Shown here in pieces: positions 32,127 to 37,797 of a DNA stretch of 64,000 nucleotides. Source of the stretch: Pelotomaculum thermopropionicum SI (GTDB lineage Bacteria > Bacillota > Desulfotomaculia > Desulfotomaculales > Pelotomaculaceae). The stretch spans positions 2,108,001 to 2,172,000 of the forward strand of contig AP009389.1 in the NCBI GenBank assembly GCA_000010565.1, given 5' to 3'. Each line of letters begins with the position of its first letter. Within the stretch, counting starts at the first letter, position 1. The notes beneath the pieces were generated by a model, which was given only the letters and a program-made list of their open reading frames with translations, did no database searches and was not told the DNA's origin. The position numbers and the translations under genes were made by a program.

Positions 32127-33416
32127 ATGAATGCCATTAACCATTTCATTTCCGCTTCTGAAGAGCTGAAACAAATTTCCGGGCAGGACTACAGGCCCTG
32201 CGTGGTTATTCTGGGGTCGTTCAATTCAGGAAAATCAACCCTGCTGAACTCCCTCCTGGAAGAAGATGTCAGCCCGGTGGGCATCATCCCCACCACGTCC
32301 TGCCTTATGCACTTCACTTACGGCAGTACCTTTAAAGCCAGAACCAGCGGCTCCGGAGAAAAAAGGGTATTCCACCATAAGGAGCAGCTTTACTCGTTTC
32401 TGGCCAAAGTAGGGCTGGCAGGCGGCCGGGTGGACGTCGAGATGCCCTCCGGCATTTTGAAAAAGTGCCGGCTGGTGGATACCCCCGGTATAGACTCCCC
32501 CGGCGGCGATGCGGGCCGCCTGGCCGAACAGGCTGCAGCAGAGGCAGACAAAATAATATATCTTTTTCACCAGCGCGGGATAGAAGATTATAACCGGGTT
32601 TTTCTTTACAGGCTGGCCTCCCTCTGGAAAAAGAAAAGTTTAAGCGACATTTCGTTCTGGATTAACTGCAACTTAGGCCCGTGCGACGGCACTTCCCTGG
32701 AGACAACCCGTTCGGCCTTGAGAGAAATTTTCTTAAGCCAGGTCAGGCTGAACACCATCAATACTGCAAAACGGGAAAACGTCGAAATGCTCCGGAAGTT
32801 CCTGGAGGTGGAGTTGGCCCGGGATTGCTTGCAGCACGCCGCAGAAAAACTGAAAAAAATGGATCGCGAGCTGCCTGAAAGGCTAAAAAAAGCTGCCAGG
32901 ATAAGGGATGACGCTCTTTTTCTCTGCGAATTCTGGAAGGTGCGGGAAACAGCCCGGAAGGTTCTGGAGGCGGAAAAGCAGATTTACTCCGTTCCTTCAG
33001 TCTTAAAAGAAATCGACGGCCACTTTAACTTAATAAATTCCTCCAACCTGGGCACCTCAGGGGCTGCACCGGGCGGCAGGCCCTACCGGCCGAAGGCGGC
33101 CGGGCTTAAAGAAATTAAAAAAGCCCTTCTCGAGCTGAGCTTTAGCCTGCTGGAACAAAATGAGCTCCTTAATTTTGTCGACCGGTCAAAGCTGACGAGA
33201 TTTTTCCGCCAGGTGGAGGAGGAGCGCTTTACCGTGGCGGCCGCCGGAGGGTTTTCTACCGGCAAGTCCACGTTTTTCAATGCTATTTTAAAAGAAAAAG
33301 TTCTACCCGCAGCCGACGGGCCAACCACCGCATCGGTAACCAGAATTTTTTTCGGCAGGCAAAAAAAGGCGACAGTATATACCCCTCTTCAGGTCCCCTG
33401 CAGCTTTTCGGGCTGA
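32127..33416 (+). CDS. double dynamin-like GTPase, first part
   Basis: 429 aa. First GTPase: G1 GSFNSGKST (30-38), IPTTS (G2), DTPGID G3 (118-123). A helical stretch (about 215-345) leads to a second GTPase whose G1 GGFSTGKST (374-382) and G2 GPTTASVT are here; the frame then stops 27 codons later. The rest of the second GTPase (its DTPGLD) continues in the -1 frame from an A7 run at 33361-33367. ATG 32127 after GGGGGCGG. Family: bacterial dynamin-like proteins, often membrane-remodelling and sometimes defensive. First gene of a five-frame rightward operon. Confidence 0.85.
   Translation: MNAINHFISASEELKQISGQDYRPCVVILGSFNSGKSTLLNSLLEEDVSPVGIIPTTSCLMHFTYGSTFKARTSGSGEKRVFHHKEQLYSFLAKVGLAGGRVDVEMPSGILKKCRLVDTPGIDSPGGDAGRLAEQAAAEADKIIYLFHQRGIEDYNRVFLYRLASLWKKKSLSDISFWINCNLGPCDGTSLETTRSALREIFLSQVRLNTINTAKRENVEMLRKFLEVELARDCLQHAAEKLKKMDRELPERLKKAARIRDDALFLCEFWKVRETARKVLEAEKQIYSVPSVLKEIDGHFNLINSSNLGTSGAAPGGRPYRPKAAGLKEIKKALLELSFSLLEQNELLNFVDRSKLTRFFRQVEEERFTVAAAGGFSTGKSTFFNAILKEKVLPAADGPTTASVTRIFFGRQKKATVYTPLQVPCSFSG
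33361..33367 (+). other. A7 homopolymer at the dynamin frame junction
   Basis: CAAAAAAAGG: moving from the first to the second GTPase frame needs a -1 shift, and this is the only homopolymer of seven between the last aligned motif of frame 1 and its stop. It is a possible slippage site or an indel hot spot. Confidence 0.6.
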
Positions 33417-33556
33417 TTGACGGAAAAGCGCGCTTAAACACGGAAGCGCTGGCGGCACTGGAGAGGTGGCTGGCCGCCCCTCAATCCGGCATCGCCCGCC
33501 TGGAAATCTGTCAGGAGGGCGCCTACCGGTTTATCGACCGGCACGAGGCTTGCACC

Positions 33557-34429
33557 ATGGCCGGCCGCCTCAGGGAACTGTTTGCCGCCGGCGGTATCAG
33601 AGGATCTAGCAGGACCGCACCGGCCGCCTACAGAACCGTTTCCCTGAAATGGCTTAAAGGGAAGAGGGTGCCGCAAAGTATCAGGGTGACCTTTCAAAAT
33701 CCGGGGGCACATGAGTTTGACCTCTCAACCCCCGAGGGTAAACAATCTTTCGAGCTTGCAGTGGCTTATGACAACGCCTTCAGGATAGAAACCGTGCACA
33801 TCGAATACCCCTCCGAATATTTAAAGCTGGCCGACTTCATCGACACGCCCGGTCTGGACTGGATTCAAAAGCATCATTGCGAAAAATCTGCCCGGTACAT
33901 CCGCCAGAGCGACGCCCACCTGGTTTTCTTCAACGGCAAGCATATTCTCAATCAAATGGACGAGAAAAACTTCCGCAACCTGTTTTTGTCAGGAACGGCC
34001 GGCCACTTAAAACAGGCCGTGGCGCCGGGCGGCGAAGAAAAACTGTATTTTGTAATCAATTTTGCCGACTCCCTGACTCCATCCCAGCGGGAAGCAGTTT
34101 ACAATTTCGTCAGGAATAACCTTTCATCGCCGCGTATATACCTGATTTCCGCCCTTAAAGCCCTGTCCGGCGAAGACGGGGGAATGAATTATTTTTTGAA
34201 GAGCCTGGAGGAGGGAATTTTAAGATACCGCGGCAGGGCCTTCTATCTGGCAAAATTAGATGAACTGTACTCCATCCTGGACCTGGCCGGCCGGCAGGTA
34301 AACGGCGAGATTACAGGCCGGCAGCCGCATGGCGGGGAAAAGAACCTGCGCAAGGCGCAGGAGTTGCTCAGAACTTCAAAAAGGAAATTAAAGGAAATGC
34401 GGAAAACAATCTACAGCACCGGGGGGTAA
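33557..34429 (+). CDS. double dynamin-like GTPase, second part
   Basis: 290 aa from ATG 33557, but the frame is open from 33362 and its upstream residues (PLQLFGLIDGKARLN) look coding, so the ATG is probably not a real start. It supplies G3 DTPGLD (about residue 96), the NFADSLTP region near a G4 position and a basic C-terminal helix. It has no P-loop of its own. Joined to the upstream frame by a -1 shift at A7 it gives a roughly 767-aa two-GTPase protein. Could be a pseudogene half, a slippage product, or a sequence error. Confidence 0.8.
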   Translation: MAGRLRELFAAGGIRGSSRTAPAAYRTVSLKWLKGKRVPQSIRVTFQNPGAHEFDLSTPEGKQSFELAVAYDNAFRIETVHIEYPSEYLKLADFIDTPGLDWIQKHHCEKSARYIRQSDAHLVFFNGKHILNQMDEKNFRNLFLSGTAGHLKQAVAPGGEEKLYFVINFADSLTPSQREAVYNFVRNNLSSPRIYLISALKALSGEDGGMNYFLKSLEEGILRYRGRAFYLAKLDELYSILDLAGRQVNGEITGRQPHGGEKNLRKAQELLRTSKRKLKEMRKTIYSTGG

Positions 34430-34649: not shown

Positions 34650-34946
34650 ATGGAGTTTAAACTGGAGTTGCTAAAGGACGAAAAGGGCGGGGACGATGTA
34701 ATCCAGCAGATGCTTGGGGATATCCTTGCCAGCTTAAGGGCAAAACTGGTGCAGCCCGTAATAGACGGCAATGCCAGAATAGCCTGCCGCCTGGATGAAC
34801 TGGACGAACAAAACAGGGTAAAAATAGCCGAGTTGATGGAAAGGCTGCAAGTGCTGGAAGACAAAGTCCGGCAGCTTCCCCTGGTTATTCTTTCGGCCTT
34901 GCGGGACGCCATCAACCAGGCCGGCGGGGGAAACGAAGATGTCTGA
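34650..34946 (+). CDS. small coiled-coil protein of the dynamin operon (98 aa)
   Basis: Not recognised. A heptad-like region (DELDEQNRVKIAELMERLQVLEDKVRQL) suggests a coiled coil. It overlaps the next gene by eight bases, implying coupled translation. Confidence 0.6.
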   Translation: MEFKLELLKDEKGGDDVIQQMLGDILASLRAKLVQPVIDGNARIACRLDELDEQNRVKIAELMERLQVLEDKVRQLPLVILSALRDAINQAGGGNEDV

Positions 34947-35196
34947 AAAAACTCAAAACGGTGCCGAACTGATCCGGTCGCTGGCCTCTACCATCCAAAA
35001 AAAAATTGTCGAACCCGCTGCAGGCAGGGCAAACGCAATTAACTTGGAAATACTTGAAATAAACAAAAAAATGGAGGCCATGGAAAAAGAATTGTCCCTT
35101 CTGGCGGCAGCCTGCAGAAAAACAGGGCTGCTGGCAGCCGCAGCCGTGCTGGGAATGATTTTGCTGGCAATTATCCTGTTTGTTCCTTTTTCTTGA
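34939..35196 (+). CDS. tail-anchored small membrane protein of the dynamin operon (85 aa)
   Basis: Not recognised. An amphipathic/coiled-coil N-terminal part (INLEILEINKKMEAMEKEL) precedes a single C-terminal TM helix (LLAAAAVLGMILLAIILFV). It would present the coiled coil to the cytoplasm and could tether the GTPase to the membrane. Confidence 0.65.
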   Translation: MSEKTQNGAELIRSLASTIQKKIVEPAAGRANAINLEILEINKKMEAMEKELSLLAAACRKTGLLAAAAVLGMILLAIILFVPFS

Positions 35197-35206
35197 GTAC
35201 CAGCAA

Positions 35207-35224
35207 GCCCGGGATTTCCCGGGC
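35207..35224 (+). terminator. GC hairpin after the dynamin operon
   Basis: GCCCGGGA / TCCCGGGC with a two-base loop, ten bases after the last stop. It lacks a T-run, so termination is uncertain. Confidence 0.4.
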
Positions 35225-35249
35225 CTGCCCAGGTTGTTGACAAAGTCCC

Positions 35250-35456
35250 CCGGTGGCTGAAACCGCTTGGCTCAGAATGCTCCGCGTCGGGTGAACTATG
35301 GCTCACTTCAGGCGGAATTGGGGCGCCCTCAACTCACCGTCCTGGCTCGGTGAGGGCTGGCGCGGACATCCTGTCCGCGCCCCCAATTCCGCAACCTCAG
35401 CTTCGCCAAGTTCACCAAACGACGCTACGCAACAGAGCAGCGTCTTCAGCCACCGG
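35250..35456. repeat. 207-bp imperfect palindromic element (MITE-like or structured RNA)
   Basis: The ends CCGGTGGCTGAA (35250-35261) and TTCAGCCACCGG (35445-35456) are exact complements. Inside, GGTGAACT/AGTTCACC and GCGGAATTGGGG/CCCCAATTCCGC continue the pairing, and two local hairpins (35332-35353 and 35360-35380) cap it. No ORF. The layout suits a non-autonomous mobile element or a folded transcript; no target duplication was clear. Confidence 0.7.
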
Positions 35457-35489
35457 TGGCTTTAATGGCAGTTTGTCTTCAGTCTAAGC

Positions 35490-35511
35490 AGGCCCGGGGT
35501 GCCCCGGGCCT
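35490..35511 (-). terminator. GC hairpin after the CotF-like gene
   Basis: AGGCCCGGGG / CCCCGGGCCT, two-base loop, five bases past the stop of the coat gene. No T-run. Confidence 0.4.
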
Positions 35512-35516
35512 GTCTC

Positions 35517-36086
35517 TTAGTGTCCCGTCATCGGCTGATAGGTTTGCTGCATCTGGTGGATAACCCGGTCCGGCATCAGGGGAACCGGATACCATCCTTT
35601 ATGATTCATGTACTGGAACAGCTCGTAGGCCATCTCCATGCAGGACCGGGCGGAAGACGCCAGCACATTGCGCAGGTGCGGGTTGGCGCATTCCAAGGCC
35701 GCATTGGTGGACCGGACGGCACTGCACTTATGAAAAACAAGAGCGCCCATTGCAATTGTACGGTCGCTTAAAGTTCTAGCATCGGGCCTGGGAACCACCG
35801 GCGATCCCTGCTGCATGCCGTACTCAGGCCTGCTTTCCACCGGCATGCCGGCCGTCCCCGCCCCCATGGTAGCAACGGGAACCCTGGAAACATCTATTCC
35901 CTGCCCCTGCATTACATTAACTTTGGTGTTGTAAGAATCGATCATATGGCGCTGCTGGCGTTCGAGAATGCGGCGCAGTTCGGGGTCCTGGCACTGGCTG
36001 ATGTACATGGCGTAATGATCGATGATGCAGGCCGACTCGCTTAAAACTTCGTGCATCTCTACAGCTTCGTGGGTTCCGAATTTCAT
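35517..36086 (-). CDS. CotF-like spore coat protein
   Basis: 189 aa. A duplicated helical bundle: N-terminal EVLSESACIIDHYAMYISQCQDPELRRIL and C-terminal DRTIAMGALVFHKCSAVRSTNAALECANPHLRNVL, the pattern of the Coat-F domain, joined by a Met/Pro/Gly linker. Such proteins are deposited in the spore coat. ATG 36086 after GGGAGG. An insertion sequence begins 31 bp upstream, so the native promoter may have been moved 1.6 kb away. Confidence 0.85.
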   Translation of the reverse strand: MKFGTHEAVEMHEVLSESACIIDHYAMYISQCQDPELRRILERQQRHMIDSYNTKVNVMQGQGIDVSRVPVATMGAGTAGMPVESRPEYGMQQGSPVVPRPDARTLSDRTIAMGALVFHKCSAVRSTNAALECANPHLRNVLASSARSCMEMAYELFQYMNHKGWYPVPLMPDRVIHQMQQTYQPMTGH

Positions 36087-36116
36087 AAATCCTGCCTCCC
36101 GTTTAATATTTATCTA

Positions 36117-36134
36117 GTGTCCCCTGAAAAAATC
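36117..36134 (+). repeat. left terminal inverted repeat of the IS
   Basis: GTGTCCCCTGAAAAAATC, exact complement of 37715-37732. Confidence 0.95.
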
Positions 36135-36213
36135 GATTTTTAAAAAACCTTATTCTCACGAGTTTTCCAGGGGGGTAATAATTTAAATTCCAAATTCCTA
36201 GTGGGCTTTGTAT

Positions 36214-37575
36214 TTAGATTATCTGGGCTGCTCTTTTGAGATTATGGACCCAAATTCCAAAGCCCACCCAGGTCTTTGAGCCAGTAAAGCCCCTATAAAG
36301 GCTGCGGTTTAAACCATACTTTCGTTTTAACAAACTAATTTTCGCTTCTCCGGCTGCTCGAAACCGCTGCAGGTCTTTAAACCAAAGCTGGGCTTCGTAT
36401 TCCATCCGTTTCTTGCTTTTTCTGCCCTTAAGCGGGGAGCTAATGCGCCTAACACCAAGGGTATGTAAAGCTTCTTCATTGCTTTGGCTGCCAAATCCAC
36501 GGTCTGTGGCAACCGCGCTCGGAGAAGAGCGGAATCGTTTTTTGTGTTGTTCAACAGCCGGTATTAGAAGGCCATCGTCTGCTGGATTCCCCTGGTACAG
36601 TTGATATCCAGTAACGAATCCGCTTTCGGTTTCATCGATACGCAGTTTATAACCGAATTCTGCCGTTTTGCCCAGCTTGCCTTTCTTGATCGGGCGTGCT
36701 TTTGGATCAAAGAAACTCACAATCCGGTCGGGAATGTTTCGGTTGCCGGATGTCACCTGTTTGGCCTGGTCAATCAATTTTTGGGTTAAGTCAACAGCCT
36801 GACTAAGTTTGTCTTTTAACGCTTTAATAGAAGTGCGGCCTTTGTCGTTAACCCGGCTGATCACTTCAAGAGCTTCATTGCAAACTTCTTCGGTTATCTC
36901 GGTGACTTTTTGGGTTATTGCGTTGATATCTTCCCAGGACTGCCCCGTCCTGCGGCGCAGCAATTTGGCAATGGATAATATCTGTTCCTTGACTTCTTGG
37001 GTTCGGTCCGCAAAACCTTTTGCAGCTTGCGAGGCTACTCTGCGTATTTTACTGACAAAACGGGTAATTACCTTGACACCATCGTGTAATAATGTTGCAT
37101 CTGTTGGATGGTGAATATTGGATTCGACTACGGTTGTATCTACACGCAGTTTACGGGTTTTTAAAATCTTCTCATCCTGAAGTTTGAGCAGCAGTAATTC
37201 GTTCAGTTGTTCGACCACTTCATCTCCGTAACGCTGACGTGCCTTAATCAGTGTTGTAGGGTCGGGCATTTCTTCATCAATAGGAATCCGGCAGAACCGG
37301 CGCCAGGTAATGCTGTCTCCAACTTCTTTGATTAGGGTCTCGTAACCCAGTTGGTAGCGCCTTTTTAAATACATCAACCGCAAGTATGTTTCAATGGGTA
37401 TGGTCGGCCTGCCGCGTCTGGTATTGAATTTTGCAATGAACGGCTGCATGAAGACTGGGTCGTCTAATATATCGTCAATTTTGGCCAGTTCAGCGGGTAA
37501 GGACCTGAAAGATTCGGGAAGAACTGTGTCCCAAAGGCTTATTTGATTCTCTCGGAGTTTTAACATGAAACCCAC
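36214..37575 (-). CDS. IS transposase (DDE, DUF772/Transposase_11 type)
   Basis: 453 aa. N-terminal DUF772-like part (PIETYLRLMYLKRRYQLGY, then WRRFCRIP), the first DDE aspartate in LRVDTTVVESNIHHPTD, the second in ATDRGFGSQSNE and a C-terminal NRSLYRG. It matches the group named ISNCY in public annotation, as far as I recall it. Full length and uninterrupted. Confidence 0.93.
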   Translation of the reverse strand: MGFMLKLRENQISLWDTVLPESFRSLPAELAKIDDILDDPVFMQPFIAKFNTRRGRPTIPIETYLRLMYLKRRYQLGYETLIKEVGDSITWRRFCRIPIDEEMPDPTTLIKARQRYGDEVVEQLNELLLLKLQDEKILKTRKLRVDTTVVESNIHHPTDATLLHDGVKVITRFVSKIRRVASQAAKGFADRTQEVKEQILSIAKLLRRRTGQSWEDINAITQKVTEITEEVCNEALEVISRVNDKGRTSIKALKDKLSQAVDLTQKLIDQAKQVTSGNRNIPDRIVSFFDPKARPIKKGKLGKTAEFGYKLRIDETESGFVTGYQLYQGNPADDGLLIPAVEQHKKRFRSSPSAVATDRGFGSQSNEEALHTLGVRRISSPLKGRKSKKRMEYEAQLWFKDLQRFRAAGEAKISLLKRKYGLNRSLYRGFTGSKTWVGFGIWVHNLKRAAQII

Positions 37576-37714
37576 CTCAAAAACAGGATTTTTGAGGGGC
37601 CATGAAGAAATTTATTAAGCAAGGAATTCGGCCCCTCGTTTGGAATTGGTTTGTTGGTCAATAACAATTTCCATTTCAGAGTGCCGAGTTCCTTTTACTT
37701 TTGTAAAACCCCCT

Positions 37715-37732
37715 GATTTTTTCAGGGGACAC
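37715..37732 (-). repeat. right terminal inverted repeat of the IS
   Basis: Exact complement of the left repeat; followed by the TATCTA duplication. Confidence 0.95.
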
Positions 37733-37797
37733 TATCTAGTATTTTGCTGCCGGCCGGTAAAAATTATACCTCGTTAAAAAATCTTTTATCAGGCTTT

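Follow-up and report, generated by a model that had tools for sequence, protein, structure and literature searches.

The palindrome at positions 35250-35456 of the window, the whole 64,000-nucleotide stretch of the Pelotomaculum thermopropionicum SI genome analysed here, is very probably the core of a longer, 257-bp non-autonomous MITE of the IS1182 type, which would be moved in trans and is aimed at terminator-like hairpins. We base this reading on the like ends of the MITE and of IS1182 insertion sequences, together with the autonomous IS1182 copies of a related genome, G056, which duplicate whole hairpins. Most copies of the element carry a target-site duplication of an entire stem-loop, and the CCCGGG hairpins that bracket the window copy are this duplicated target, a point that was missing from the original prediction. 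We use the wording “terminator-like” because the window hairpins (35202-35229 and 35487-35514) have no T-tract and were not called by the terminator scan, and the name “terminator” would be given to them by analogy, from their position and from the other copies.

The palindrome and the full element

The original prediction described a palindrome of 207 bp capped by two inner hairpins, and the folding of both strands bears this out, given that 35250-35456 forms a single long imperfect stem with two hairpins as its cap at -118.1 kcal/mol on the plus strand (z -9.3) and -133.5 kcal/mol on the minus strand (z -11.3), energies equalled by none of 200 shuffles in either case. The 12-bp inverted repeat CCGGTGGCTGAA is found at both termini of this segment. 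The palindrome is therefore real, but the element is longer than was thought, since the similarity between copies extends past these limits, as far as CAGGTTGTTGACAAAG at one end and CAGACTGAAGACAAAC at the other, which together make up an imperfect terminal inverted repeat; the ends read approximately CAGRYTGWWGACAAA. The end motif sets the limits at contig positions 2143230-2143244 and 2143472-2143486, and the full element, bounded by its terminal inverted repeats, spans 35230-35486 (Table 1). It contains no ORF of 60 amino acids or more and hence no transposase gene. The description of the surroundings also holds: the element sits between convergent units, with a plus-strand ORF without a Pfam match (34939-35196) on one side and a minus-strand Coat F gene (35517-36086) on the other, and the two similar CCCGGG hairpins are present, agreeing at the number of positions given in Table 1. 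A covariance-model search identified the core as a match to the RNA family TwoAYGGAY (RF01731), above the gathering score.

Table 1. Features of the window copy, numbered from the first letter of the window.
Feature	Positions	Strand	Basis
Hairpin, target copy 1, AGCAAGCCCGGGATTTCCCGGGCCTGCC	35202-35229		23/28 identical to 35487-35514; flanks compared with permuted pairs
Whole 257-bp MITE	35230-35486	- (TwoAYGGAY strand)	End motif at both ends
Terminal inverted repeat CAGGTTGTTGACAAAGTCCC	35230-35249	+	13/20 positions agree with the other end (one end read on the opposite strand)
Inner inverted repeat CCGGTGGCTGAA	35250-35261	+	Sequence
TwoAYGGAY RF01731, model 1-168 in full	35277-35432	-	64.4 bits, gathering score 43
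Loop of second inner hairpin, CAGGACG	35338-35344	-	Sequence, model alignment
Loop of first inner hairpin, CAGGATG	35367-35373	-	Sequence, model alignment
Inner inverted repeat CCGGTGGCTGAA	35445-35456	-	Sequence
Terminal inverted repeat TAGACTGAAGACAAACTGCC	35467-35486	-	Most other P. thermopropionicum copies read CAGACTG
Hairpin, target copy 2, AGCAGGCCCGGGGTGCCCCGGGCCTGTC	35487-35514		Flank alignment, 23/28 identity

Elsewhere in the window, at 32127-34429, two plus-strand ORFs of 429 and 290 aa show GTPase-like GxxxxGKS/DTPG motifs by eye and, to judge from these motifs, may be one dynamin-like gene split in two.

Copies, conserved ends, and short forms

The palindrome is not a single-copy sequence. 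A BLAST search of the P. thermopropionicum genome (3,025,375 bp, one contig) gave 22 matches, eight of which, with the window copy counted, are near full length at 93-100% identity, and the same genome has ten RF01731 matches over the cut-off. The conserved ends, CAGACTGAAGACAAA and CAGGTTGTTGACAAA, occur at 30 sites with at most one mismatch, some of these being lone sites inside genes, while the reversed control pattern occurs at none. Other copies carry the 15-base motif at both ends, and one of the P. thermopropionicum loci, L014, has lost one end.

Two short elements of P. thermopropionicum, of 59 bp (407539-407597) and 54 bp (928122-928175), have the same ends without the core and are surrounded by duplicated hairpins, and the end-and-target pattern is thus independent of the core. 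In G034, a genome of the same order and a different family, elements of 54, 77, 111, 115, 146, and 195 bp occur alongside forms measuring about 265 bp; of these, at least L181 is reversed. At a 77-bp element of this genome (L180, contig C8, near 122034), the flanking hairpins look like mutual reverse complements and not like direct repeats.

Duplication of a whole hairpin at the target

The target duplications of MITEs are usually short. In most copies of the present element, a hairpin specific to the locus starts directly past each end, and it is the same hairpin on both sides. When the 40 bases to the left of each element were aligned with the 40 bases to its right, a score of at least 13 was reached by 9/9 scored P. 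thermopropionicum elements and by 28/30 elements of G034, against 0/72 and 0/870 permuted pairs, respectively (0/942 for both sets). The nine comprise seven elements selected by end motif (7/7 at or above 13) and two, L010 and L051, that were added by hand once their flanks were known, L051 being a 41-bp odd form; the window copy is L009 in the flank-alignment set, and L011, L014, and the copies near 1032169, 1324268, 2869999, and 2958821, with single or degraded ends, fall outside it. The thirty G034 elements are exclusively those with the motif at both ends, and the two misses are L180 and L187. Copies were also selected by Rfam score with their ends ignored, and in that case 7/8 of P. thermopropionicum scored at least 12, the exception being L011, where flank duplication is absent, as did 18/20 of G034, namely the best 20 of 38, with L109 and L115 below; 2652 permuted pairs under like scoring had a 99th percentile of 10 and a maximum of 12.5.

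The duplicated stretch is about 17-31 bp long, and its limits track the feet of each hairpin. The flanks also fold unusually well, lying under the 5th percentile of the surrounding sequence in 7/18 cases in P. thermopropionicum and 32/60 in G034, and many G034 hairpins have a T-run on one side (L101, L110, and L113, for example). The state of the site without the element was sought by comparing seven joined G034 flanks, with one hairpin each, with nine genomes of G034's genus. For L102, L117, and L116, the alignment with the sister genome G352 runs through the join, and the G352 site has one hairpin and no element, with about 50 extra bases beside the hairpin at the L117 site and smaller length differences at that of L116; these three are the sites that were aligned, and further hits also touch a join.

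It could be argued that each of two convergent genes merely has a terminator hairpin of its own, similar to that of the other, and that the palindrome lies between the two hairpins by chance, given that convergent genes do flank the element in the window and that open frames end within 150 bp on both sides in 19/28 copies, chance frames included. However, the hairpins match within each locus and not between loci, as the permuted pairs indicate, and the single hairpins at the three empty sites of G352 contradict the existence of two separate terminators, which leaves this explanation with hardly any probability.

The probable IS1182 partner

The duplicated hairpins of the MITE have their counterpart in autonomous elements. 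A megatransposon of Thermoanaerobacter kivui has been tied to an IS1182-type element, and the junction printed in the available text of that report consists of a hairpin followed by CAGACTGTTGACAAA (PMC12056078). When named genomes were scanned for the pattern, 14 loci were obtained from Caldanaerobacter, Thermoanaerobacter, and a Clostridia MAG, and by eye a hairpin abuts the IS end at 14/14 of the fetched loci. Only two of these, both from T. wiegelii, are long enough to show the other side, and in both of them this hairpin is found again 2.2 kb further along, beyond the transposase gene, whose product belongs to the IS1182 family (NF033551, 490 bits, cut-off 270). In the T. wiegelii IS1182 at L197 and L200, the right end of the IS contains an apparent group II intron (GTGCGCCCGGCATGGG, opposite strand), which adjoins the duplicated hairpin.

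Among the 60 genomes near P. thermopropionicum, 14 have relatives of the IS1182 transposase. The end motif, at up to two mismatches, was found in only 8/24 fetched IS1182-like loci (G056, G023, and G033), and all eight adjoin a hairpin by eye. In G056, which belongs to the genus of G034, 3/3 intact IS1182 copies have CAGACTGTCAAA-type ends and are bracketed by hairpins duplicated exactly over 22, 34, and 27 bp, the likeness of these ends to those of the MITE being at the level of the motif and not full identity. The resemblance to a MITE that was noticed at first is thereby upheld by the copies, the terminal inverted repeats, the target-site duplication, the empty sites in a sister of the carrier G034, and the autonomous IS1182 with like ends.

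No IS1182 transposase was found at E <= 1e-20 in the genome of P. thermopropionicum or in G034, and therefore their MITEs look orphaned or use a more distant enzyme. The 12 DUF772 transposases of P. thermopropionicum were considered as partners and rejected, as a scan for the end motif with up to three mismatches gave no convincing opposed pair by eye. No transposase is present among the ORFs listed at the lone CAGACTG sites L162 and L163 (G003 and G002).

A closer candidate is the insertion sequence at about 36116-37733, which lies only 0.6 kb from the element and encodes a DUF772/DDE_Tnp_1 transposase, so it might be supposed to have moved it. This supposition is extremely improbable, since the transposase is ruled out as partner by family and ends: it belongs to ISNCY (NF033593, 510 bits) and scores 150 with the IS1182 model, under the cut-off of 270, and the ends of the insertion sequence, AGTGTCCCCTGAAAAAAT with ATCT on both sides, are unlike those of the MITE. 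A second near-identical domain match to this ISNCY is located at 1399874.

Proposed mechanism of insertion

For the IS1182-type MITE, we propose that an IS1182-family DDE transposase, probably now gone from the P. thermopropionicum genome, would move the element in trans. The target recognised by this enzyme would be a stem-loop, in the typical case a terminator-like hairpin. On each strand, one of the two 3' ends of the element would presumably be joined to the hairpin at its 5' foot, after which repair would duplicate the intervening stretch and leave a complete hairpin on each side. We infer the recognition of structure rather than sequence from the way in which the duplication follows the hairpin at any length. 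The element would then be parked in an intergenic pocket between two hairpins, probably insulated from transcription, in which neither neighbouring gene need lose its own hairpin, and a near-neutral landing site would be the consequence of the hairpin duplication.

Distribution, and other repeats with a TwoAYGGAY core

The distribution of RF01731 is patchy and often multicopy, with matches in 13/60 relatives and up to 38 copies, and in 36/299 genomes of the phylum, a survey in which at most nine candidates per genome were scored and whose copy numbers are therefore lower bounds. The combination of IS1182-type ends and duplicated hairpins is found in eight genomes, namely P. thermopropionicum, G034, G003, G021, G090, G167, G309, and G304. 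By eye, it is seen in two of the five copies viewed in G003, one of them clear and the other degraded, in the single copy of G021, with a weak hairpin, in 4/5 copies of G090, the fifth being cut by a contig end, in at least 2/6 copies of G167, and in the one fully viewed copy of each of G309 and G304.

This does not extend to the family as a whole. The proposal that all TwoAYGGAY sequences are IS1182 MITEs was rejected, because flank duplication within 100 bases exceeded the permuted maximum of 12.5 in just 7/52 loci (four more were too short); six of the seven come from P. thermopropionicum, G034, and G003, and the other, L247 of G116, is without IS1182-type ends. Copies with other ends were seen by eye in G033, G053, G298, G275, G202, G330, G236, G087, G345, G103, G116, G128, and G154, and since the core occurs with other ends in other genomes, we consider TwoAYGGAY to be a cargo common to several kinds of dispersed repeat, the IS1182 MITE being one of them.

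Several of these other repeats have features of their own. A second TwoAYGGAY-like subfamily in P. thermopropionicum (L019, L020, L021, L023, L024, and L025, near 2855419, 95964, 1928683, 203505, 2833081, and 585588) forms one long hairpin terminated by TTGTCA...TGACAA, and its outer stem varies between copies with both sides in step, GGTGGCACTTTGTCA going with TGACAAAGTGCCACC, for example, and GACGGTGCCTTGTCA with TGACAAGGCACCGTC, in what looks, from these sequences, like compensatory change or palindrome correction. In four of these six copies (L021, L023, L024, and L025), a nested hairpin (GGGGACACACCTCC...GGGAGGTATGTCCCC) occupies the same place in the first inner hairpin, as if a second small element were inside the loop. 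In G033 (L125-L140), a GC-rich long-hairpin repeat surrounds the TwoAYGGAY core, and its outer arms also vary in step, GCTGGTGTG with CACACCAGC and GCAGGTGTG with CACACCTGC. In L276 and L277 of G298, the core is enclosed by yet another dispersed repeat, whose arms read GAGTCA...GGGGACGGTTCT.

The cargo as a possible structured RNA

In the literature, TwoAYGGAY is an RNA motif without an assigned function; its discovery table rates it “RNA: y” and cis-reg “n”, while Rfam types RF01731 as cis-regulatory. A structured small RNA was the other possibility named in the original prediction, and we have to weigh whether TwoAYGGAY is a host structured RNA, either a cis-regulator or an sRNA, whose vicinity to terminators is incidental and whose repetition is secondary. 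Its standing as a curated Rfam family, the “RNA: y” rating, and the occurrence of the core between other ends in many genomes all speak for such an RNA. The TwoAYGGAY strand also folds better than its complement in 52/53 copies, a bias suggestive of past selection for this strand.

However, the same table gives cis-reg “n”, the orientation of the core relative to the T-rich side of the hairpin is inconsistent (11 right and 16 left, of 28), and no sigma-70-like promoter was found across 35000-35700. In addition, the variation between copies within genomes favours the RNA strand only weakly, with 35 G-U vs. 22 A-C pairs (6 vs. 6 in P. thermopropionicum), a difference too weak for this strand test to decide the matter, and dispersal with target duplications is the behaviour of a transposon. 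A cis-regulatory RNA of the host was discarded for want of an orientation rule and of a promoter, and we consider the host-RNA explanation as a whole unlikely, though less so than those based on separate terminators or on the neighbouring insertion sequence.

A possible CsrA decoy

A further proposal adds to the IS1182 MITE reading instead of replacing it, namely that the MITE may be a mobile CsrA decoy whose cargo, if transcribed, would bind CsrA through its two GGA loops. The match of TwoAYGGAY to CsrA sites and its binding of CsrA were already proposed, according to the available text, in PMC4333381. P. thermopropionicum has one CsrA gene, at 2205040, and GGA in the hairpin loops of the element; its copies have loops of the form CAGGAYG, one base short of the family consensus CAUGGAUG, which counts against the proposal. 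By our own tally, two CA(N)GGANG motifs are present in 97/108 copies, although the covariance model used to find these copies itself favours GGA loops.

According to co-occurrence tables compiled by hand, CsrA is present in 12/13 genomes with TwoAYGGAY vs. 20/47 of the others (p 0.0013) and, in the larger survey, in 35/36 vs. 174/263 (p 1.8e-5), yet the two genome sets overlap, the statistics ignore kinship, and stratification of the first comparison on genome size leaves only p 0.07 and 0.14. IS1182 transposases show no such link to CsrA (7/14 vs. 25/46), and the decoy would explain why TwoAYGGAY, unlike these transposases, occurs almost exclusively where CsrA is encoded. On the other side, the 54- and 59-bp elements show the same target pattern without any core. 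We therefore regard a selfish widespread element that carries a CsrA-binding decoy in TwoAYGGAY and is parked between duplicated gene-end hairpins as a tentative possibility, suggested by sequence and co-occurrence and still improbable on balance. If this were true, a transposon would hide in a harmless landing site and at the same time tap a global regulator of its host. Given the strong co-occurrence with CsrA, the CsrA-binding proposal for TwoAYGGAY is worth testing.

Significance and comparison with known systems

A curated RNA family with no assigned function becomes, in at least eight genomes, the cargo of a mobile element, and these insertions provide natural evidence of DDE transposition with a complete stem-loop of variable length as the target duplication, which suggests a route by which an element could spread without a terminator cost to its host. 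The targeting of terminators or stem-loops by IS1182 members is already published, as the available text of PMC5678879 and PMC4923244 makes clear. Within the open-access literature searched, three points are new: one branch of TwoAYGGAY as MITE cargo, whole-hairpin duplication by these MITEs and their IS1182 partners, and the co-occurrence of TwoAYGGAY with CsrA. Whole-hairpin duplication was found in that literature only as a drawn hypothesis, in the part of PMC5678879 that was available.

Prokaryotic MITEs in general are short and intergenic, with inverted repeats and without a transposase gene, as is the case here, and the duplication of a whole terminator is not mentioned for them in the available text of PMC10969869. 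In the staphylococcal members of the IS1182 family, IS1272 and TnSha1, the target is a stem-loop, often a terminator, without sequence consensus (PMC5678879 and PMC4923244, in their available text). IS1272 itself is reported there to replace the hairpin, with duplication drawn as the possible pathway b in Figure 13 (PMC5678879), and insertion of IS1272/TnSha1 in terminator hairpins is accompanied by partial deletion (PMC4923244). In contrast to this deletion or replacement, reported for IS1272 and TnSha1 without duplication as far as those texts go, the MITE described here duplicates the entire hairpin.

The IS1182 elements of Thermoanaerobacter, Caldanaerobacter, and the Desulfotomaculales relatives resemble the MITE in their end motif and abutting hairpin and, like it, show whole-hairpin duplication wherever both sides are visible. 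These IS1182 elements carry a transposase gene, whereas the MITE lacks one and has TwoAYGGAY instead. The TwoAYGGAY RNA (RF01731), for its part, is matched here over the full length of its model, but as the cargo of a mobile element.
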